Positions 6,143 through 63,471 of a DNA stretch of 64,000 nucleotides are shown in pieces. The position numbers and the translations under genes are program-made. The stretch spans positions 3,352,001 to 3,416,000 of the forward strand of contig NZ_CP009928.1 of assembly GCF_001021975.1 (NCBI RefSeq). The letters are read 5' to 3'. Numbering within the stretch: position 1 is the stretch's first letter; every line of letters starts with the position of its first letter. Origin of the DNA: Chryseobacterium gallinarum (lineage in GTDB: Bacteria > Bacteroidota > Bacteroidia > Flavobacteriales > Weeksellaceae). Below the pieces are notes generated by a model. It ran no database searches, was not told where the DNA came from, and saw only the letters and a program-made list of their open reading frames with translations.

Positions 6143-7453
6143 ATGACAAAGAAAATAAAAACAGCACTATCAGTTCTGATAGCAGCTTTCCCTGCGCTGT
6201 TTTTTTCACAACAAATTAAACAGATGACCGCAGGTGAGGTTGCCGAACTGGCAGTCCGAAACCATCAGCAGTTAAAAGTTTCAGCGCAAAATATAGATAT
6301 TGCGAAACAAAACACAAATATTGTCAAGCTTCAGAAGCTTCCTACGATTACTGCATCTACAAGCCAGTTTTATCTGGGGGATGCCGTTGCCATCGATAAA
6401 GATTTTTCGAATTCTGCCAAAGTTCCGATGCCTCATTATGGAAGTTCTTATGCTGTACAGGCTACACAATTGATCTTCAAAGGAGGATTGGTCAACAAGT
6501 CTATAGAAATGGCCGGACTTCGTGAGCAGCTTTCTGAGCTGGATCTTGAAAAAAACAAACAGGATGTGAAATTTTTAGTGATTTCAAATTATCTGGATGT
6601 TTATAAAATCATGAACCAGGAAGAAGTGTTTCAGAACAACAAAAAACTGGCTTTGGAACGCCTTAAGAATATTCAGAAATTCTATCAGCAGGGTATGGTA
6701 ACCCGAAATGAAGTGATCCGTGCCGAACTGGCTATTAAAAATTTAGACCAGGGAATCCTGGCGTTGGCCAATAACAGGAAAATCCTTACCTATAATTTAA
6801 ATATTGCGCTAGGTTTATCTTCTGATACGGAAATCGTTCCAACGGAAAGTTTAGAAAATAAAGATGCAGGAATCGGAATGGAATATTATACCCATCTTGC
6901 TCATGACAGCAATCCCTTGCTCAAATCAGCGAAAAAGAATATAGATGTTGCCGACAAAAATATAGAAATTATTAAAACCGATAATATGCCTACCATCGCA
7001 GGATTTGGTGGATATACCTTACAAAGACCTATTACTACAAGAAATCCTGTCCTGGATATGTATTCAGGAGGCTGGCAGACGGGTGTTTCTTTAAGTTATA
7101 ACATAGACAGTCTTTATAAGACGAAAGAAAAAGTAAAATTGGGTGAGCTGCAAAAAAATCAGGCGAATGATGCAATGACTTTAGTACAGCAAAACGTGGA
7201 TATGAGTGTGAATGCGGCTTATACAAAATACCAGGAAGCTATTCAGCAGGCTGAAATTCTGAACGATTCCAAAAGACTGGCAGAAGAGAACTACAAAATT
7301 ACAGAAGCGAAGTATTTGAATCAGTTGGCGGTACAGGCGGAAATGATTGATGCGCAAAACCAGAAACTACAGTCAGAACTGGATTATGCCAATGCAGAGA
7401 TCAATGTCTTGTATCAATATTATAACCTTTTGAAATCTACGGGAACACTTTAA
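6143..7453 (+). CDS. TolC-family outer membrane efflux protein
   Basis: A 436-residue protein with a signal peptide (cleavage near residue 21, after LFFSQQ-type sequence). It has the two-fold repeated long coiled-coil and beta-strand pattern of outer membrane factors: AEVAELAVRNHQQLKVSAQNIDIAKQ-type helices early and the repeated NAAYTKYQEAIQQAEILNDSKRLAEENYKI segment late. It should form the trimeric outer-membrane exit duct for the HlyD/MFS pump encoded immediately downstream (25-base gap). Substrates are unknown. Confidence 0.93.
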   Translation: MTKKIKTALSVLIAAFPALFFSQQIKQMTAGEVAELAVRNHQQLKVSAQNIDIAKQNTNIVKLQKLPTITASTSQFYLGDAVAIDKDFSNSAKVPMPHYGSSYAVQATQLIFKGGLVNKSIEMAGLREQLSELDLEKNKQDVKFLVISNYLDVYKIMNQEEVFQNNKKLALERLKNIQKFYQQGMVTRNEVIRAELAIKNLDQGILALANNRKILTYNLNIALGLSSDTEIVPTESLENKDAGIGMEYYTHLAHDSNPLLKSAKKNIDVADKNIEIIKTDNMPTIAGFGGYTLQRPITTRNPVLDMYSGGWQTGVSLSYNIDSLYKTKEKVKLGELQKNQANDAMTLVQQNVDMSVNAAYTKYQEAIQQAEILNDSKRLAEENYKITEAKYLNQLAVQAEMIDAQNQKLQSELDYANAEINVLYQYYNLLKSTGTL

Positions 7454-10514: not shown

Positions 10515-12728
10515 ATGAAAAAGCAGTATGCATTCATAGGTCTATTGGCATCGGGTTTAATGTTTTCCCAGACCATTACAGATTCTATAGCCTCTAAAGG
10601 TATTGACGATGTGGTGATTGTAGCCTCCAGAAAACCAACAAAAATTTCAGAAATTCCGGGTACGGTTTGGGTGGTACAGAAAGAAAAAATACAGGAGCAG
10701 GCAAAGAGTGGTGTTCCTATTAAGGAAATGCTTTCTATTCTGGTTCCGGGTATGGATATCGGCCCACAAGGGAGAACTAACTACGGACAAAATATGAGGG
10801 GACGCTCCGCTTTGGTTATGATTGACGGGGTTTCTTTGAACAGTATCCGGGCAATCAGCCGTCAGCTGGATGCTATTGACCCTTTCAATATCGAAAGAAT
10901 TGAGATCCTTTCCGGGGCAAGCTCAATTTATGGCGGCAATGCTACCGGAGGAATCATCAATATCATTACCAAAATTCCTTCCAAAAACGGAATCAGTGGA
11001 GAAACCGAATTGGGTGTGCGTACAGGTTTTATGGGGAAAGATGATCATGATTTCCGTGCTGCTCAATCTATTGCTGGAAAAGGAGAAAAGCTTTTTGGAA
11101 GATTGGGGGTTGCTTATCAACAAAATGGAGGGGCTTACGGGGCAGACAAGAAACAACTTTTTACCGATATTACACAAACTGATCTTCAGTACAATCAATC
11201 TATAGATATTTTAGCTACTGGAGGGTATCAGTTTAATAATAAACATAAAATAACAGCTTCAGTTCAATATTACAATTCAAAATTCAATGGAGACAGAAGT
11301 TTGTTTTTAGGTGAAAACCTAGGTGCTTTCACTCAGAAGAATGCATCTTTACTCGAAATGAGGGACGGTTTTTCTTCTGATAAAAATATAGGTACGGAAC
11401 GTTATATGGGAACTGTAGCATATACCGGAAACGGGATATTGGGAGGACAGGATCTGTATGTACAATTTGCTACCCGCGGTGAAAAACTGGGGTTTTATCC
11501 CTTCCCGGGAAATGTAACTTTACAGCAAAATAAAAAAATTGCTTATATGTCTTCTTCCCAGCAAGATACCTATTATTCGGGAATCAAAGCCTTGTTATCC
11601 AAATCCTGGCGCGGACTGAACGTTACGTACGGAGCCGATATCGATTTTGAAAAATTTGAAGGAAACCAATCAGTCTATGATATTTCTAAAACCATGTCCA
11701 GCGGTGGCTTGATTAATGAAACACAATACAGGCTGGGAAGATACCCTACCAATCATTCACAAAGTTATGCAGGATATATTCAGGCAAAATACAATATCTT
11801 CCCCAAATTACAGCTCAATGCAGGAGTACGTTATCAGAATATCACAGTTAAAATGGATGATTTTGTAGGCTCAGAGCAGCAGACGCAGATGGCAATGGGA
11901 TATGGGCAATCAGCATCAGCGATTCCGGGAGGCCAAAGTTCGTATAATGTAACTCTGGTTAATGCAGGATTATTGTATAAGCTTAATGACCAGCACCAGA
12001 TCTGGGGAACGTTTTCTCAAGGAGCAAGTCTGGCTGATCCTGCAAAATATTATGGAATTGGAAAATATGAAATCAACGGTACCCATTGGAATGTTGTATC
12101 CAGTATTAATGTGAAAGATCAGCCATTACAGGCGATTAAAACCAATCAGTTTGAAGTGGGGTACCGTGTTAATAAAGGAGGTTTGAGAGCCCAGGTGGCC
12201 GGTTTTTTAAGTAATTCGGATAAAAGTGTCACTGTAGATAAAAAGACTTTCCAGATTCTGGTCAATGACCTGAAATTAAGAAATATGGGAATTGAAGCTG
12301 AAATTTCTTACGCTTTGGGTAATGGTGTTTACTTCGGAGCGAGCGGGCTTTTGATCAAGTCTGAGGTCGACAATAAAGGAGAATGGAAAAAGCAGGAGAT
12401 TTATAATGCTTCGCCATCAAAATTGGTTACCTACATTGGGTACAATGTGAAAAACTGGTCATTCAGATTTCAGTCGTTACAGAATTTCAAGTTGACAGAT
12501 GAGTTGAATAATGTGATTGATGGATATAATACCTCAGATTTAATGATAGGATACCGGTTCAATTGGGGTAAACTCAATTTAGGGATCCAAAACCTGTTTA
12601 ACACGGATTACCAGACTATCTGGAGTAAACGTTCCCAGGTTTTATATTCTTCCTACGGACTTCCGGAATTATTTAATTATAAAGGAAGAGGGAGAACATT
12701 TAATCTGTCCTATACTTTCGAATTTTAA
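10515..12728 (+). CDS. TonB-dependent outer membrane siderophore receptor
   Basis: A 737-residue receptor with a signal peptide ending near residue 19 (SGLMFSQ). The plug domain follows (about 30-150: VVIVASRKPTKISEIPGTVWVV...RIEILSGASSIYGGNATGGIINIITK). The rest is a 22-strand barrel pattern ending in an aromatic C-terminal strand (FNLSYTFEF). There is no N-terminal carboxypeptidase-like domain, so it belongs to the siderophore-type receptors rather than SusC. It is followed by a siderophore-interacting reductase gene, which supports ferric-siderophore uptake. The specific siderophore cannot be read from the sequence. Confidence 0.92.
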   Translation: MKKQYAFIGLLASGLMFSQTITDSIASKGIDDVVIVASRKPTKISEIPGTVWVVQKEKIQEQAKSGVPIKEMLSILVPGMDIGPQGRTNYGQNMRGRSALVMIDGVSLNSIRAISRQLDAIDPFNIERIEILSGASSIYGGNATGGIINIITKIPSKNGISGETELGVRTGFMGKDDHDFRAAQSIAGKGEKLFGRLGVAYQQNGGAYGADKKQLFTDITQTDLQYNQSIDILATGGYQFNNKHKITASVQYYNSKFNGDRSLFLGENLGAFTQKNASLLEMRDGFSSDKNIGTERYMGTVAYTGNGILGGQDLYVQFATRGEKLGFYPFPGNVTLQQNKKIAYMSSSQQDTYYSGIKALLSKSWRGLNVTYGADIDFEKFEGNQSVYDISKTMSSGGLINETQYRLGRYPTNHSQSYAGYIQAKYNIFPKLQLNAGVRYQNITVKMDDFVGSEQQTQMAMGYGQSASAIPGGQSSYNVTLVNAGLLYKLNDQHQIWGTFSQGASLADPAKYYGIGKYEINGTHWNVVSSINVKDQPLQAIKTNQFEVGYRVNKGGLRAQVAGFLSNSDKSVTVDKKTFQILVNDLKLRNMGIEAEISYALGNGVYFGASGLLIKSEVDNKGEWKKQEIYNASPSKLVTYIGYNVKNWSFRFQSLQNFKLTDELNNVIDGYNTSDLMIGYRFNWGKLNLGIQNLFNTDYQTIWSKRSQVLYSSYGLPELFNYKGRGRTFNLSYTFEF

Positions 12729-55776: not shown

Positions 55777-56229
55777 TTAAAATTCTAAAGAACTTTGATA
55801 AGGGACCTCTAAATCATAATATTTTCTGAAGGCATGCCCCAATTTTTCTTTTATTATTAACCTTTCTTTCTCACTGATATGATTGGCATCTGCTAAATAG
55901 TTGTTATGTAAAACAGCCTTCCAATTTCCTTTCCAAGGTTTTTCATCAATAAAGCTCTGATAGATAGTAAACATTTTATGCCTATATATAGCATCCTCTT
56001 TTTCTTCAAGCGTCTGATACCTGGTGTAAACTATAAACATCCATCTTGATGCTTTTCTCTCATTGTCTTCAGGTAATCCGCAGGTATCATTTTCAAACAT
56101 CACTGTTAAGGCTCTTTTTTTTAATATCTTATTAATCTTAGAAACCCCATAAAAAACACGAAGAGGCTTTTTTTTTAAATAATTCCACCGTTCTTCAATT
56201 TCTTCGGGTGTTAATGGATCATTTAACAT
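55777..56229 (-). CDS. Early phage protein of unknown function downstream of hairpin A
   Basis: A 150-residue soluble protein (MLNDPLTPEEIEERWNYLKKKPLRVFYGVSKINKILKKRALTVMFEND...). No family recognised. The true start is placed at 56229: an upstream ATG at 56271 is in frame, but the 14 codons between would translate the structured repeat element (MEWFDSTPGNK), which also occurs in front of unrelated genes. Chosen start lies exactly 14 bases after the element. Confidence 0.65.
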   Translation of the reverse strand: MLNDPLTPEEIEERWNYLKKKPLRVFYGVSKINKILKKRALTVMFENDTCGLPEDNERKASRWMFIVYTRYQTLEEKEDAIYRHKMFTIYQSFIDEKPWKGNWKAVLHNNYLADANHISEKERLIIKEKLGHAFRKYYDLEVPYQSSLEF

Positions 56230-56243
56230 TACTTTAATTTTGT

Positions 56244-56285
56244 TCCCAGGAGTGGAATCGAACCACTCCATAAAACCGTTTGGGA
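56244..56285 (-). ncRNA. tRNA T-arm/acceptor-like intercistronic element A
   Basis: On the minus strand: TCCCA, an 11-nt bulge beginning AACGG, GGAGTGG, loop TTCGATT, CCACTCC, TGGGA, then ACAAAA. Stems of 5 and 7 bp stack to 12 bp with a 7-nt loop of T-loop type. It begins two bases after a TAG stop and ends 14 bases before the next ATG. Confidence 0.7.
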
Positions 56286-56286
56286 T

Positions 56287-56448
56287 CTAATCTTGCATTT
56301 CTAATACAAAATCTTCAGCCATATGGAAAGGATCTTGACCATCTTCCCAATCCTGCCTAAATGATTCTTTATCAACAGTTCCTTTATATCCTAAACCTCT
56401 GACAAATTCTAGAAATGAATCAATCCACTCTTCAAATGTTTTTTCCAT
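56287..56448 (-). CDS. Small acidic phage protein
   Basis: A 53-residue protein, MEKTFEEWIDSFLEFVRGLG then YKGTVDKESFRQDWEDGQDP and FHMAEDFVLEMQD, strongly acidic and rich in aromatics. No signal peptide. Its stop TAG almost touches hairpin element A. Small acidic early proteins of this kind can be DNA mimics or inhibitors, but that is only a possibility. Family unknown. Confidence 0.62.
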   Translation of the reverse strand: MEKTFEEWIDSFLEFVRGLGYKGTVDKESFRQDWEDGQDPFHMAEDFVLEMQD

Positions 56449-56471
56449 TGTTACTTTTTAATGATTAATTT

Positions 56472-56687
56472 TTAGATTTTTGATACTAGTTTTGTTAGTG
56501 CTTTTTTATATGCTTTATTGAATTCTATTTCTGTTGTTTCCTGCATTTTTTCTTCTATTTTATATTGTTTATATTTATACCATATTTCAATATTTGTATA
56601 GAAAGTATATGTTTTTACATAAGTGATATTCTTTTCTTTATCTACTCTTACGAAGCTGTTATCATCTTTTTTGTAATACTTATTCAT
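56472..56687 (-). CDS. Small basic early phage protein
   Basis: A 71-residue protein (MNKYYKKDDNSFVRVDKEKNITYVKTYTFYTNIEIWYKYKQYKIEEKMQE...), rich in Tyr and Lys. Located ten bases after the preceding gene's stop with no hairpin element between. No family recognised. Confidence 0.6.
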   Translation of the reverse strand: MNKYYKKDDNSFVRVDKEKNITYVKTYTFYTNIEIWYKYKQYKIEEKMQETTEIEFNKAYKKALTKLVSKI

Positions 56688-56697
56688 AATCTTGATT

Positions 56698-56946
56698 TTA
56701 AAATAATTCCGTTTGATTGAAGGATAGTAAAAGTTCTAATGAGCTTTTGGTGCAGCTTTTTTCCTTTAATTTTTGATGTATCTTTAATCTTTCAAGCTTA
56801 CATACTTCTTCAAATGCTTTATCGTGGTATTGAGATACCCAACCACCATCACCAGCAAACACCATAGAAGCAATTCTACCATTTTCAAACTCTGATATAT
56901 CTATTGATGTAGAGTCATTAAATTCTTTTTTTAAAAGGGTTTTCAT
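56698..56946 (-). CDS. Early phage protein of unknown function downstream of hairpin B
   Basis: An 82-residue protein (MKTLLKKEFNDSTSIDISEFENGRIASMVFAGDGGWVSQYHDKAFEEV...). Start 56946 lies exactly 14 bases after hairpin element B. A TTG further upstream (56988) is in frame but would translate the element. The FAGDGGWVSQYHDKAFEE part looks like a compact domain; no family recognised. Confidence 0.62.
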   Translation of the reverse strand: MKTLLKKEFNDSTSIDISEFENGRIASMVFAGDGGWVSQYHDKAFEEVCKLERLKIHQKLKEKSCTKSSLELLLSFNQTELF

Positions 56947-56960
56947 ACAATAAATTTTGT

Positions 56961-57003
56961 TCCCAGGAACGGAATCGAACCACTCCAAAAAAACCGTTTG
57001 GGA
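56961..57003 (-). ncRNA. tRNA T-arm/acceptor-like intercistronic element B
   Basis: Same architecture as element A: TCCCA/TGGGA outer stem, GGAGTGG against CCGTTCC inner stem, TTCGATT loop and a 12-nt bulge. Two stem positions differ from A and C but still pair as G-U and U-G wobbles. The upstream gene's TAA stop directly abuts the element, and the next ATG lies 14 bases downstream. Confidence 0.7.
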
Positions 57004-57384
57004 TTATTCCAGATCATCATAGACAACTATATCAGGTCTATTTCTGAAATCTCTTGGACTTATGCACTTTTGATGATTTAATTCTTCACTTTCATTATTT
57101 TGAAGATTTTCAACTTCAACATTTTCATTGAAAATTTTATTGATGTATCTGATTTCTTCCTCAAAGACAAAAGGAGACCGAAGTTTTATAAATCGATGCC
57201 ATTTTTTATCTACAAATGCATATCTATGCAGGTCTAAATACATGAAATCCTTTTGTCTACTATGAAATTGCTCCATAGCTTTGTAAGACGTAAATTCTTT
57301 TTCTTTTAAATCTTTTCCATCCAAATACTCAAGCTTAAAAGCAGTTGCATTTTCAAAAATTATTCTCTTTTTAAACTTTTTCAT
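57004..57384 (-). CDS. Early phage protein of unknown function between hairpins C and B
   Basis: A 126-residue protein (MKKFKKRIIFENATAFKLEYLDGKDLKEKEFTSYKAMEQFHSRQKDFMYLDLHRYAFVDKKWHRF...). Basic N-terminus, acidic C-terminus (VVYDDLE). The start at 57384 lies 14 bases after element C; the in-frame TTG at 57426 lies inside the element. Its stop abuts element B. No family recognised. Confidence 0.65.
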   Translation of the reverse strand: MKKFKKRIIFENATAFKLEYLDGKDLKEKEFTSYKAMEQFHSRQKDFMYLDLHRYAFVDKKWHRFIKLRSPFVFEEEIRYINKIFNENVEVENLQNNESEELNHQKCISPRDFRNRPDIVVYDDLE

Positions 57385-57398
57385 AAATTTTGTTTTGT

Positions 57399-57440
57399 TC
57401 CCAGGAGTGGAATCGAACCACTCCAAAAAACCGTTTGGGA
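57399..57440 (-). ncRNA. tRNA T-arm/acceptor-like intercistronic element C
   Basis: Nearly identical to element A: outer stem TCCCA/TGGGA, inner stem GGAGTGG/CCACTCC, loop TTCGATT, 11-nt bulge AACGGTTTTTT and downstream ACAAAA. It directly abuts the TAA stop of the upstream gene and ends 14 bases before the next ATG. Confidence 0.7.
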
Positions 57441-57557
57441 TTAGAATTTTTTATTTCCGTAGCATTCTATAACTGCGTAGATTAGCATTCCTAGTAAAAA
57501 ACCTACCATAAAGCAGACAGAACCTACATAAGCTATTAAAAGTTCACTATCTGTCAT
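57441..57557 (-). CDS. Small membrane protein, early phage operon
   Basis: A 38-residue protein, MTDSELLIAYVGSVCFMVGF then LLGMLIYAVIECYGNKKF, with a single transmembrane helix spanning most of its length. It starts two bases after the 238-residue gene's stop codon. Its stop abuts hairpin element C. Single-helix small phage proteins may act in superinfection exclusion or regulation; unknown here. Confidence 0.62.
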   Translation of the reverse strand: MTDSELLIAYVGSVCFMVGFLLGMLIYAVIECYGNKKF

Positions 57558-58626: not shown

Positions 58627-58972
58627 GTTTTGGCTTTTTAAAATGTTTTTTGAATGAATTTCCGTTAATTTCCCAGACTGTACCATTTTCATTACTCATT
58701 ACCTTTGTGAAATACTCATCCTTTAAGATTCTAAACTCCTTAATTTCAGCTAGGTTGAGAGTATAAGAAATGATCCCTTTTGGATTTTTTTGATTTTCCG
58801 GAATATAAGCTCCTGCATTGGTTGTAAATCTGCGTTTCAAATTCTTGCTATCCTTATGTGAGGCTATGATTTCCCATTCCTGGTTAAGCATAATTTTATG
58901 TTTGGTCAAATAACAATAGCTCTGGACCACTGCAAAGCAGATTTTGTCGTTTAATAATTCTTCTATAATCAT
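58601..58972 (-). CDS. Phage protein of unknown function following the MuB-like gene
   Basis: A 123-residue protein (MIIEELLNDKICFAVVQSYCYLTKHKIMLNQEWEIIASHKDSKNLKRRFTTNAGAYIPENQKNPKG...), basic at the C-terminus (FKKHFKKPKHEAFRKVS). ATGA-type overlap with the MuB-like ATPase gene implies coupled translation. It could act in transposition control or DNA binding; no family recognised. Confidence 0.65.
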   Translation of the reverse strand: MIIEELLNDKICFAVVQSYCYLTKHKIMLNQEWEIIASHKDSKNLKRRFTTNAGAYIPENQKNPKGIISYTLNLAEIKEFRILKDEYFTKVMSNENGTVWEINGNSFKKHFKKPKHEAFRKVS

Positions 58973-59898
58973 ATGTATATATTTTGAAGTTTGATTTTTT
59001 CTCTGATAACCATTCGTTTTAATCTTCGCAGATCTTCAACGACTTTGACGTTCTGAACCTGTTGTTTATCAATTGGGATTTCTTTAAAAATTGGTTTTAA
59101 TTCGTCAAAAATCATTTTTTGTGTAGCAGGATCGTTGACACCATTAGCAGCACATATTTTTTTCACGCAATTGAATGTTGCTCCTATCAGATTGATGTAT
59201 GCGCGGCCAAAACGGCTGTCTAATTCATCAAAGCCTAATTTTTTAAGCCTTACACCTCTTTTGATTCTTTCTTCCAGGTGTGGAGTTCCGGCCATGATAA
59301 GTGCCATTTCGTCCTCACTCTCATTATAAAGGTGAATGAACCATCTTAAGGCTGAATCTTTCAATTTATCAGCTTCATCCACTATCAAAAGAGGTTTTAC
59401 AGAGCCTCTTTTTCGGAAAAAATCACAGACTTTCATTCCTAATTTATCAATGTGCATATAAGATTTTCCAGTGTCTATACCTAACATTGCAGCTAATTCA
59501 GTTAAAAATTCTCTTTTTGCCCATTCACGGCACCTGATATAGAACACCCCGGATTCTGCATTGCTTTGAGAGTATGATTTTAGTGGAGCACTTTTTCCAA
59601 TTCCGGCCTTATCACTGACAACCATAAATAAAGAGTATGATTTTGCATCGTTACAGATAGTAGAAACTTTTCTATAGTTAATTGTTTCAGCAATCTGCCA
59701 TTCCGAATCATCCCAGCCACAAGCTTTACCAACTTTTAGCCATAATTCATCTTTTATCAGCTCCCATTTACCGTTTACCATCTGGGAAATTGTAGCTGTT
59801 GAAACATCGGCTTTTGTAGCTACTTGGCCGTAGCTACCAAGCCGCTCTTTTTCTGTATTAATTGCAATAACTATTGCGGATTTTTGTAAGTTTGTCAT
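58969..59898 (-). CDS. MuB-type AAA+ ATPase, transposition target selector
   Basis: A 309-residue protein. Residues about 20-50 form a helix-turn-helix (GQVATKADVSTATISQMVNGKWE), as at the N-terminus of Mu B. The AAA+ part has Walker A SDKAGIGKSA (about 95-104) and Walker B LLIVDEADKL (about 170-179), then a sensor-like ALIMAGTPHLEERI. Mu B binds DNA in an ATP-dependent way, delivers target DNA to the transposase and gives target immunity. It starts three bases after the transposase stop. Confidence 0.93.
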   Translation of the reverse strand: MTNLQKSAIVIAINTEKERLGSYGQVATKADVSTATISQMVNGKWELIKDELWLKVGKACGWDDSEWQIAETINYRKVSTICNDAKSYSLFMVVSDKAGIGKSAPLKSYSQSNAESGVFYIRCREWAKREFLTELAAMLGIDTGKSYMHIDKLGMKVCDFFRKRGSVKPLLIVDEADKLKDSALRWFIHLYNESEDEMALIMAGTPHLEERIKRGVRLKKLGFDELDSRFGRAYINLIGATFNCVKKICAANGVNDPATQKMIFDELKPIFKEIPIDKQQVQNVKVVEDLRRLKRMVIREKIKLQNIYI

Positions 59899-59901
59899 AT
59901 C

Positions 59902-62031
59902 TTAATAATTTAGAGACGTATTTTTTAAAATTGCGTCCTCGATATCTTCAGGAGAGTAGTCATCTCCTGAAGCTTTTTTAAGAGGAATTGTGTAACCTTC
60001 ATTCAGGTAGTTATCCTCAAACGCATTTGAAATTTGCTTTTCAGTGTACTGGCCCATCAGTTGAGAATCTTCACCAATCATAGACGCTAATTCCTGATCT
60101 CTCAATTCAGCAATCTGTTGAGCTCTTGCTTTTGCTTTTCCAACTGCTGAAAGGTCTTTGTTCGGTCCTTTTGTAATCGGTTTTTCAAATAATTCGGCTT
60201 CACACAGTGATACTAATAGGTTATTAGTTTCGGCCCATAAGAAAACAATTGAAAGATCATTAATATCATAAGTCATTACGATCCTTTTACCATGGTAATT
60301 CTTAATAATATCATAATATGCAGGGCTGATCATATAGGTAAATTCAACTCCCACAATTTCAGTGGTGATCTGCCCATTGTTGCCTAATGTTATTTTTTTA
60401 CGAGCATCGAATAATTTTGATATAGTAGCACCTGAAAGGAATGTAACATGTGGTTTTTCACTATGATCATGCAGTTCAGAAGGTGACTGATGTACTTTTG
60501 AGTGTTTTCTTGAATACTGAGAATAAGGTGTAACCCTGTATTTTTCTATATGTACAGAGGCTTCTTCAATGCTTTTTTCTAAATTCCACCCTTGTTTTTT
60601 AGCCTCTTTTTTAATTCTTTTAAGATACTCAGCAGATCTGTGAGCATATTTTGCTCTTGATTGGATTCCTTCACCATAGAAGTATTTAGAATCCATAAAG
60701 AATACAGATTGCAGGGTTCTGAACCATCTTTCCATTTTTGCTTTATCATTCGCTTTTGAGGTAAATGATATTTTTACTCCCTGTCCCTTCATTCTTTCAA
60801 AAAGATCTGTCATTTGTGGAGTGTTATGTCCTGGAAAACGGTCAGTTATCCATTCAAAAGGTAGATAACCTGCATTTTGAACAGCCATTTTCATAGCTTC
60901 AGTATATACAAAATGATTTTCTTCGTAATCAAAGGAGTATCCCAGGATATCGCCTGAATGTACATCCCGGACAGCAACAACTATAATGTACTTTTCAACT
61001 TTTTTAGTTTTTGAGTTCCCGTTTTTGTCAATCACGGTGATCTCACCTTCATGAGAAATCATATTTACTCTTGTAGCATCCATTTCCCAACAATCCCCAG
61101 CATATAGAGCGTTTTGAGTAGGGATGTATGAGCGGTGTATGTATGATTTTCTGCTGCTTGCTCCGAACCTTTTTAAACCTGTTAAAAACTGTGTTTTGGA
61201 CTGTTCAAATATTGTTTGTCCATACCAACGACGTGAAGGAGCTTTTTTAAGCGTTAATTCACACATTTGAGTAACTTTTCTGATGATATGTTCCTGTGAG
61301 AACGTACTATCATCAGCATACATCTGCATAACCCAGCTGAATACTTCAGGATCATTGTAAATTTCAGCATTATTATTACCTGCACGAGGTAAGCGAATAA
61401 TATCTACAATGGCCTGATCTGTTGTTTCAAGAATGGTTATTTTTTCCTTTAACTTTAAATAGTTATGTGGAATATATTGAAGGTCCATTTCCGACAGAAC
61501 CGGGCTTAAATCCTTATATAATTTGTTAGCAGTTCCCGGATAGTCATCTTTTTCGTCCAGAATGAAATCTAAAACAGCACATGCCTTTGATAAAGCAGCT
61601 CTCTGAATATCATTAACATCTTTGTAAAACTCAGAATATTGGGGAGAAACAAGCTTTAAATGCTTTTTAAACCTTCGTTCTAAGGTTGTTTCCTCTTTTG
61701 ACTGACAAACTGTTTTATAGGCATCAAGTAATGCCTCACCGTCACCAAACATATTTCTGTAATGTTTGGGGGCTTTGTTTGGAATATTATTAAGACAGTA
61801 ATAGAAATGCCCGGAAACCTTTGCCCAACGCCATGACTTGCCAGAATCCGGCATGAAGTCTTTAGCTTTAGCAAGGTCACAAGGCCGAACCGTTTTTTTA
61901 TAGCGGATTCTTGCAACTTTCAAATAACTGTCCTCCAACCCGCAAATTTCAGCAATCAAGCGTTCTGAAAGCCAAATGCTTTCATTACTGCCTGATTGTC
62001 GTATTAATATGTCTGTAGGTTGAAGGTTCAT
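59902..62031 (-). CDS. MuA-type DDE transposase
   Basis: A 709-residue transposase from ATG 62031. The N-terminal half has HTH-type DNA-binding segments (LSERLIAEICGLEDSYLKVARIRYKK). The RNase-H-like core contains the catalytic triad D318 (CWEMDATR), D397 (EWITDRFPGH) and E434 (KAKMERWFRTLQ). A C-terminal beta-barrel and a MuB-interacting tail follow. It joins phage ends to target DNA in replicative and integrative transposition. A TTG at 62097 is in frame, but the 22 codons between would translate hairpin element D. Confidence 0.95.
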   Translation of the reverse strand: MNLQPTDILIRQSGSNESIWLSERLIAEICGLEDSYLKVARIRYKKTVRPCDLAKAKDFMPDSGKSWRWAKVSGHFYYCLNNIPNKAPKHYRNMFGDGEALLDAYKTVCQSKEETTLERRFKKHLKLVSPQYSEFYKDVNDIQRAALSKACAVLDFILDEKDDYPGTANKLYKDLSPVLSEMDLQYIPHNYLKLKEKITILETTDQAIVDIIRLPRAGNNNAEIYNDPEVFSWVMQMYADDSTFSQEHIIRKVTQMCELTLKKAPSRRWYGQTIFEQSKTQFLTGLKRFGASSRKSYIHRSYIPTQNALYAGDCWEMDATRVNMISHEGEITVIDKNGNSKTKKVEKYIIVVAVRDVHSGDILGYSFDYEENHFVYTEAMKMAVQNAGYLPFEWITDRFPGHNTPQMTDLFERMKGQGVKISFTSKANDKAKMERWFRTLQSVFFMDSKYFYGEGIQSRAKYAHRSAEYLKRIKKEAKKQGWNLEKSIEEASVHIEKYRVTPYSQYSRKHSKVHQSPSELHDHSEKPHVTFLSGATISKLFDARKKITLGNNGQITTEIVGVEFTYMISPAYYDIIKNYHGKRIVMTYDINDLSIVFLWAETNNLLVSLCEAELFEKPITKGPNKDLSAVGKAKARAQQIAELRDQELASMIGEDSQLMGQYTEKQISNAFEDNYLNEGYTIPLKKASGDDYSPEDIEDAILKNTSLNY

Positions 62032-62070: not shown

Positions 62071-62110
62071 TCCCGCCGTGGTGTCGAAACCACGCAAGGC
62101 CGTGGCGGGA
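62071..62110 (-). ncRNA. tRNA T-arm/acceptor-like intercistronic element D (divergent copy)
   Basis: On the minus strand: TCCCGCC, a 10-nt bulge starting ACGG, GTGGT, loop TTCGAC, ACCAC, GGCGGGA, then ACAAAA. Stems of 7 and 5 bp give the same 12-bp stack as copies A-C although almost every stem base differs. It starts two bases after the upstream TAA stop; the transposase ATG lies 39 bases downstream. Confidence 0.65.
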
Positions 62111-62663: not shown

Positions 62664-62718
62664 TAAAAAATGCAAAAAATTGCAATTTTATTACGGTTTC
62701 CCATTTTTATTAATTATC

Positions 62719-63471
62719 ATGCTGAAAATCAAAGAGATACGAGAGAGCAAAAATATTACACAAGACGAAATGGTTTTACGGACAGGAATTCCAAAGCGTT
62801 CTTATGTAGATTATGAGAATGGGAAAAGTGATATCCAACTCAGTAAGTTGCAAAAAATCGCAACAGCATTAAACGTAACTGTAGGTTATTTAATAGGAGA
62901 AACTAAAAGTGAAAATTTAGTTATCATTGAAAACGATAACAATAATGATAACCTTTTTGATAATAAACCAAAAGTAAAAAGTAAGTTATCAATCGATGGA
63001 GAAGTTATCGGAATTAATGAATACAATAGCGAATATATTGAGGTGATGCGAAAGCTCAAATTTGCAGACAGTATTAGTATTACAGATCACGGAGCTCCAT
63101 TCTATGAACTTCCTGTAAGTGCGGGCCGTGTACATGAACTTATCGACATGCAGGAACGACCTACAGGGTATATAAATTTACCTGGAATTAATTGTGATGC
63201 ATTTTTCCCAATTACAGGAGCTTCTTTTGAACCATTTATAAGGGCTGGAGATATAATTGGAATAAACTTTATAGATAAATGGGAGAATTTAGATCCTGAT
63301 TGTATCTATCTAATTATTACATATGATCAAAGAATGATCAAAAGATTAATGAATCACCCTACAGATAGTACATTATTGATATGCGTATCACCAAACTATA
63401 AAGAATTCAATATAGATAAGTTTACAATACGATACATCCATAAGGTCACATTCTGTGGACGTTCTATTTAA
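62719..63471 (+). CDS. Phage repressor: XRE HTH plus S24 (LexA/CI-type) autoprotease
   Basis: A 250-residue repressor from ATG 62719. Residues 1-60 form an XRE helix-turn-helix (ITQDEMVLRTGIPKRSYVDYENGKSDIQLSKLQKIATAL). After a linker the C-terminal half carries the S24 features: a cleavage site Ala135-Gly136 (PVSAGRVHE), nucleophile Ser169 in PITGASFEPFIRAGD and Lys208 in RMIKRL. It should be cleaved on RecA activation, linking induction to DNA damage. Mu itself uses an unrelated repressor. It is divergent from the early operon and the outermost gene on the right. Confidence 0.92.
   Translation: MLKIKEIRESKNITQDEMVLRTGIPKRSYVDYENGKSDIQLSKLQKIATALNVTVGYLIGETKSENLVIIENDNNNDNLFDNKPKVKSKLSIDGEVIGINEYNSEYIEVMRKLKFADSISITDHGAPFYELPVSAGRVHELIDMQERPTGYINLPGINCDAFFPITGASFEPFIRAGDIIGINFIDKWENLDPDCIYLIITYDQRMIKRLMNHPTDSTLLICVSPNYKEFNIDKFTIRYIHKVTFCGRSI

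Follow-up and report, generated by a model that had tools for sequence, protein, structure and literature searches.

Among the closest described counterparts of the RNA elements reported here are the tRNA punctuation of polycistronic RNA in mitochondria and the t-elements of plant mitochondria. Two other groups of RNAs invite comparison. In mascRNA/menRNA, a tRNA-like RNA lies within a longer transcript and is cut by tRNA enzymes; in the tymovirus type, a tRNA-like structure occupies the genomic 3′ end of an RNA virus. As to the processing enzymes, RNase P is described as contacting the stacked acceptor and T-stem of its substrate (PMC11221534), and RNase Z as clamping the tRNA elbow, with CCA as its antideterminant (PMC4919913). 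Set against these systems, the locus described here carries elements that are, with strong support, minimal tRNA-like RNAs in which an acceptor stem is stacked on a T-arm. We refer to them as mini-tRNAs.

The stretch of DNA analysed (the window, 64 kb) is part of a 4.63-Mb genome and contains a Mu-like prophage with its early genes on the minus strand: transposase, MuB-like ATPase, DUF3164 protein and accessory genes. The transposase gene (59902..62031, minus strand; 709 residues from the ATG at 62031) matches phrog_310 and phrog_956, and the MuB-like ATPase gene (58969..59898, minus strand) matches AAA_22 and phrog_296, a DNA transposition protein. A probable repressor gene (62680-63471, plus strand) was called by eye only. 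To judge from its transposase, MuB-like ATPase and DUF3164 genes, present in that order, the carrier is a Mu-like transposable phage that appears Winoviridae-like. A matching gene order is described for prophages like fF4 (PMC7761591), and the window transposase is 26.8% identical to that of fF4 over 51% of the query.

Three mini-tRNAs, all on the minus strand, stand between the accessory genes: copy A (56244..56285), copy B (56961..57003) and copy C (57399..57440). An earlier note on this DNA had located three such copies, and both their positions and the particulars that it gave are borne out. Each pairs TCCCA with TGGGA in a 5-bp stem and has a second stem of 7 bp, the loop TTCGATT and a one-sided bulge of 11-12 nt. 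The upstream stop codon ends 0-1 nt before the element (TAG plus one A at copy A, TAA at B and C), TGGGA is followed by ACAAAA, and the ATG of the next gene comes after exactly 14 nt (at 56229, 56946 and 57384, respectively). Copy A reads, 5′ to 3′, TCCCA-AAC-GG-TTTTAT-GGAGTGG-TTCGATT-CCACTCC-TGGGA, and all three share one order: TCCCA, AAC, GG, a T-rich run, a 7-base strand, TTCGATT, the return strand, TGGGA and ACAAAA. The discriminator A of copy A lies at 56243 and is followed by CAAAA. The T-stem of copy B includes one G-T pair, and in copy C the acceptor strand occupies 57440-57436, the GG 57432-57431 and the T-loop 57417-57411.

The neighbouring genes are also on the minus strand. That after copy A (55777..56229, 150 residues) has no Pfam or PHROG match, and that before it (56287..56448, 53 residues) ends 1 nt from the element. 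Copy B is followed by a gene for 82 residues (56698..56946) with one weak PHROG match, to a tail fiber (E 4e-4), and is touched by the stop codon of the 126-residue gene that separates it from copy C (57004..57384). A frame of 38 residues, found by eye and under the cut-off of the list of open reading frames, precedes copy C (57441..57557), with its stop codon touching the element.

Three copies are more than chance would give. A loose descriptor (a TTCGA loop, 11-12 coaxial pairs and a bulge of 6-18) finds 3 matches in the window, compared with a mean of 0.1 and a maximum of 2 over 60 windows simulated with matching dinucleotide composition. Folded singly, copies A and C adopt this structure, at -16.1 kcal/mol and with z of -2.0 and -2.2. 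The minimum-energy fold of copy B has another pairing (z -1.1), so that the structure would not show from this copy alone.

The same genome holds two further copies. Copy D (62071..62110, minus strand), to which the earlier note alludes, is a divergent mini-tRNA in the transposase leader, 39 nt from the transposase ATG, and scores 18 bits (E 0.069) with R1, a covariance model built from A, B, C and L004. Its pairs are TCCCGC/GCGGGA and CGTGG/CCACG (6+5), its loop has 8 nt (TTTCGACA), ACGG lies within the bulge and ACAAAA follows; the same form recurs in relatives as a transposase leader. L004, at 4,303,980, is a strong copy whose ATG is also 14 nt away and in which the T-stem is exchanged for TCGGCGG/CCGCCGA, a set of compensatory changes with respect to A-C. 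It probably sits in a second prophage, since a neighbouring protein resembles, by eye, the DUF3164 protein of the window. The structural genes in the 64-kb window carry no further element recognised by R1 or by a broader model, R2; at E 0.01 R2 detects A-C alone, and R1 detects D as well.

Relatives were gathered with R1, with DNA patterns, one of which gave 74 matches spread over 64 viral contigs, and by transposase homology. The 202 matches carried forward comprise 154, 34 of a further 39 (the five left out, on L205 and L232, repeat other loci) and 14 copies of the D form. Dropping those with identical 30-nt context leaves 176 non-redundant members, among them a few doubtful ones of low score (L055, L150 at 10542, L157, L171 and L198). 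They stand ahead of early genes in transposable phages of flavobacteria and related bacteria, with up to six copies in one phage, L091. Within the genus, 8 of 173 whole genomes have an R1 match of more than 50 bits. Weak matches of 26.3 bits, present in most genomes of the genus, were set aside and do not enter this count; the one example read, L022, proved to be a long-variable-arm tRNA, tRNA-Leu-like as judged by eye. With R2 at E 1e-4 or better, the bacterial family has 32 genomes with matches out of 296, spread over 13 of 33 genera. The order has 7 out of 395, including two that do not belong to the family, and the phylum 3 out of 395. These whole-genome searches used stricter filters, which may have lost weak members. 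In the phylum set the window's own genome alone was accepted, and matches in G195 and G508 were set aside, L199 showing arrays of tRNA-half-like repeats.

Among phages, a nucleotide search gave no match and a transposase search gave fF4 only, a Winoviridae phage of Flavobacterium columnare. This has two copies, both unannotated, one at 2400-2444 before the transposase (CDS 2474) and one at 7119-7163 before the CDS at 7209; R2 finds no other elsewhere in the 31,958 bases of this phage. Plasmids gave two weak matches. In Rfam 15, no match to the elements at gathering score was obtained for 40000-64000 of the window (E up to 1) or for 56200-57460 (E up to 10), where overlaps were weak and sub-threshold, and we did not find such elements described in the open-licence literature.

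Both stems covary. In a sequence-only MAFFT alignment of 73 of 83 distinct sequences, which leaves out nine forms with 8-nt loops and one host tRNA, 96.8% of 851 cells are paired and two-sided change is seen at 10 of the 12 pairs. Double-changed cells number 183, compared with a shuffled mean of 50, and sliding the partners lowers pairing to 36-59%. The members of this alignment had been chosen by a descriptor that requires pairing, and a second test was therefore made on pattern matches whose inner positions were free. There, pairing is seen in 371 of 406 cells, where shuffling gives 241 on average and 272 at most, and 44 of 71 distinct instances are fully paired. RNAalifold, unaided, recovers 10 of the 12 pairs, and L087, like copy B, has another minimum-energy fold. 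The earlier note would have been contradicted by stems without compensatory change, or by homologues that were merely recent duplications, and neither is the case.

By eye, three forms can be told apart. The first (AACGGTTTT, loop TTCGATT) is frequent between genes; the second (NNNGGCANNCA, loop TTCGAGT, 5+6 pairs) is frequent near promoter-like boxes; and the third is the D form, with CACGGC and an 8-nt loop, found before transposases. The acceptor end, TCC/GGA, is nearly constant, its 5′ bases being T in 172, C in 176 and C in 175 of 176; this constancy was favoured by the patterns and models used, and is seen also in the leaders found by protein homology. The stacked acceptor and T-stem amount to about 12 pairs. 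Of the 175 members in which the 3′ strand can be read from T-loop to discriminator, 111 have 12 nt there and 64 have 11.

The proposal, made in the earlier note, that the elements mimic the acceptor/T-arm half of tRNA is strongly supported: to the covarying stems and near-constant T-loop are added two adjacent guanines (GG), a 3′ end like that of the host's tRNA genes and tRNA-like RNAs at the same site in two relatives. In tRNA, G18 and G19 of the D-loop dock in the T-loop. The mini-tRNAs have a GG, absent from the earlier note, three bases past the acceptor strand in a D-loop-like position, which we infer also docks in the T-loop. Because several of the other searches demanded GG, its frequency was counted at transposase loci found by protein homology. 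Sixteen of 17 such loci have a mini-tRNA within 130 nt upstream, and the GG, not required in this search, is present in 15 of the 16 leaders, the exception (L083) reading GA.

The seventeenth locus, L090, has instead a full tRNA-like RNA (RF00005, 43.7 bits) between a repressor-like gene and the transposase. Its anticodon region has 42 nt where the RF00005 model has 9, and ARAGORN makes no tRNA call there. In another transposase leader, L187, a three-arm tRNA-like RNA (-26.9 kcal/mol, z -3.7) ends A-CAAAAA and is directly followed by a mini-tRNA; its Rfam matches are all sub-threshold. These two RNAs (L090:7813-7927 and L187:1416-1480) are possible intermediates between tRNA and mini-tRNA. Elsewhere on the first of these contigs a DUF805b RNA (RF02914, over the gathering score; L090:12463-12495) stands between a mini-tRNA (12420-12464), which it follows directly, and the next gene. 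Other element-bearing phage contigs have matches to c4-2 RNA (RF02944, twice) and RT-17 RNA (RF03020), at L161:900-981, L163:4384-4462 and L146:1240-1325.

The 3′ end is equally characteristic. The base after the acceptor stem is A in 138 and G in 36 of the 176 members (174 purines), followed by C in 175, the sole non-C being in a copy cut at a contig end, and then by A in 171. A purine followed by CC, as in the R73-C74-C75 of an RNase P substrate with an RCCA end, is thus not what the elements have, and it is missing also from the host's own tRNA genes: among 75 RF00005 matches, C follows the discriminator in 74 and CC in 2, with A after that C in 44 and T in 26. The tRNA 3′ end is thus half encoded in this host, CCA being present in 2 of the 75 genes. 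With their purine-C-A, the elements end like these genes. A cloverleaf (RF00005) is not formed, the elements having an acceptor and T-arm only, and ARAGORN finds no tRNA in the window. Elsewhere in the genome (C1:2615133-2616871, L125) it finds ten tRNA genes, some low-scoring, in what looks like a phage tRNA cluster belonging to another element of the genome.

The elements stand at gene junctions. Taking the first ATG frame of at least 35 residues within 160 nt, one is found for 171 of the 176, compared with 71% of random same-strand positions; the ATG lies at 11-41 nt in 150 of these 171, compared with 19%, and the median is 22. An exact 14 nt, which the earlier note gave as a property of the elements, is true of A-C and L004 and does not extend to the family, being found in only 17 of 171; the range is 7 to about 130 nt. 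An own-strand ATG frame of at least 100 residues encloses 9 of the 176. An upstream frame was called for 129 elements, and its stop codon falls 0-4 nt before the element in 71. The downstream genes are unrelated, as had been claimed: the 151 downstream frames (at least 40 residues, within 60 nt) form 60 clusters, of which the largest, with 40, is the transposase. Gene order leads us to expect that the genes at a junction share one transcript.

Several copies with no close stop codon have, by eye, a promoter-like TAGT(G/A)A box, inside an inverted repeat, some 9-11 nt upstream, so that transcripts may start at these copies. Repeats such as CTATATTT...AAATATAG or ATCACTA...TAGTGAT are about 50 nt or less upstream of promoter-near elements (L085, L161, L188, L197, L209 and others) and flank the presumed early promoter. 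Their arms vary between phages and remain complementary, as those of repressor operators might.

Three other accounts were set aside. Copies A-C can be translated in the frame of the gene that follows (MEWFDSTPGNK...), as a peptide tag would be, but the spacing of the 171 members covers all three frames (72, 51 and 48). A tRNA remnant of integration is ruled out by the Mu-like carrier, the copies inside the early operon and the covarying stems. A terminator was dismissed on sight, the element being followed by an A-rich stretch and a gene start, with no T-run.

What, then, do the mini-tRNAs do? The explanation that we prefer, and to which we would give close to an even chance, is that RNase P and RNase Z cut the early message at these sites, as in tRNA punctuation. 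A mini-tRNA, consisting of acceptor, T-arm and two D-loop guanines, could be set before any early gene and would probably be cleaved as a tRNA by the host enzymes, the polycistronic early RNA being split at every copy. RNase P is predicted to cut at the element's first base, which often adjoins the stop codon of the preceding gene, and RNase Z to cut behind the purine discriminator; the next message would begin CAAA, with its ATG after some 10-40 bases. We infer from this arrangement both cuts and, as their benefit, a separate short A-rich leader for each gene. The host has a class A RNase P RNA (201 bits) and an RNase Z (307 bits, above cut-off). The covarying stems, a 3′ strand near the 12 nt of tRNA, the 3′ end shared with host tRNA genes, the mini-tRNAs in 16 of 17 transposase leaders and the tRNA-like RNAs at L090 and L187 all favour punctuation, and C-A in place of the CCA antideterminant favours cleavage by RNase Z.

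Other features count against punctuation. Processing alone does not require a near-constant TCC/GGA; a first pair T1-A72 is unusual in tRNA; RCCA lacks its second C here; the 3′ strand has 11 nt in 64 of 175; and copy B and L087 have other minimum-energy folds. Weaker binding to RNase P is reported for truncated substrates (PMC11221534). That enzyme can apparently do without the D-loop (PMC4919913), which leaves the GG unexplained by it. At several copies a 5′ cut would matter little, a promoter-like box (by eye) being close upstream.

The main rival to punctuation, possible but in our view rather unlikely, is that the element is left uncut as a tRNA-like 5′ leader and there enhances translation or stability, as it might by docking at an elbow site on the ribosome or by blocking 5′ decay. 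Such hosts make little use of Shine-Dalgarno pairing. The concentration of 150 of 171 elements at 11-41 nt before an ATG, well above the level for random positions, would be expected of a leader, and copies just after a promoter-like box (by eye) would form the RNA 5′ end with no cut at all. The ribosomal L1 stalk is described as another elbow-binding RNA (PMC4919913). The looseness of the spacing, from 7 to about 130 nt, is harder to reconcile with a leader; a plain stability hairpin needs no T-loop, GG or purine-C-A, and many copies are inside operons, directly after a stop codon.

Conservation of the TCC/GGA end and discriminator as sequence, beyond pairing, together with the use of one mark before genes of 60 clusters, would suit a binding site for a regulatory protein, either of the phage or a tRNA-binding protein of the host, that exerts joint translational control over many early genes in the manner of RNA operators. 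Such a site would not be expected to have a tRNA-gene-like 3′ end, or a full tRNA-like RNA in the same place, and we consider it improbable. Very improbable is a role at the DNA level, as a recombination spacer for exchange of early-gene cassettes or as an operator: near-identical copies between exchangeable genes, and the inverted repeats (by eye) just upstream of several promoter-near copies, agree with it, whereas covarying stems in divergent copies, the T-loop and the host-tRNA-like 3′ end are not predicted. Least probable of all is a sponge or decoy that would occupy tRNA enzymes or tRNA-targeting nucleases, whether of the host or of its defences. One phage has up to six copies, and the nuclease Cas12a3 is described as engaging the tRNA acceptor stem, T-arm and CCA tail (PMC12851939); a decoy, however, need not stand before start codons, the elements have no CCA, and to suppose that CCA is added once they are processed is speculative.

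A structured RNA family with strong covariation, with no Rfam match and unannotated in a named phage, fF4, is a find in itself. If the mini-tRNAs are cut like tRNA, phages shape their own gene expression through the tRNA maturation of the host, and the elements would provide RNase P and RNase Z with minimal substrates of natural origin, could show how much of a tRNA these enzymes can do without, and would make a portable operon-splitting device for Bacteroidota. If they are uncut, they would be 5′ leaders of a new kind, at work in bacteria with little Shine-Dalgarno use. Should the forms be related, full tRNA, three-arm and mini versions still occur at one locus in different phages.

Comparison with the known systems brings out what is particular to these elements. 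With the tymovirus-type structures (RF00233) they share viral mimicry of the acceptor/T-arm stack, but the phage elements are internal, many per genome and in DNA phages, and the one RF00233 match, in L187, is sub-threshold and covers 15 nt. As in mascRNA/menRNA (RF01684), the tRNA-like RNA would lie in a longer transcript; those RNAs differ in being eukaryotic and single-copy and in forming the 3′ ends of long RNAs, and RF01684, the best Rfam match of the L187 three-arm form, scores 18.2 bits there, below its cut-off of 42.5. The pATSer-type minihelices used with RNase P, as described in PMC11221534, likewise have about 12 stacked acceptor and T-stem pairs closed by a loop. They are laboratory constructs, whereas the natural elements add a bulge of 9-15 nt containing GG and have no second C of RCCA. 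In mitochondrial punctuation, tRNA-shaped RNAs stand at gene junctions, and here too cleavage by RNase P and RNase Z would release the messages. The phage marks, whose cleavage is predicted, differ in having no anticodon arm or D-stem, in being repeated copies of one family and in belonging to the early operons of DNA phages. On the wider view, which we put at somewhat less than an even chance, the transposable phages of Bacteroidota may have turned a tRNA into a reusable 42-base mark at which host enzymes split the early transcript, a bacterial counterpart of the mitochondrial system.
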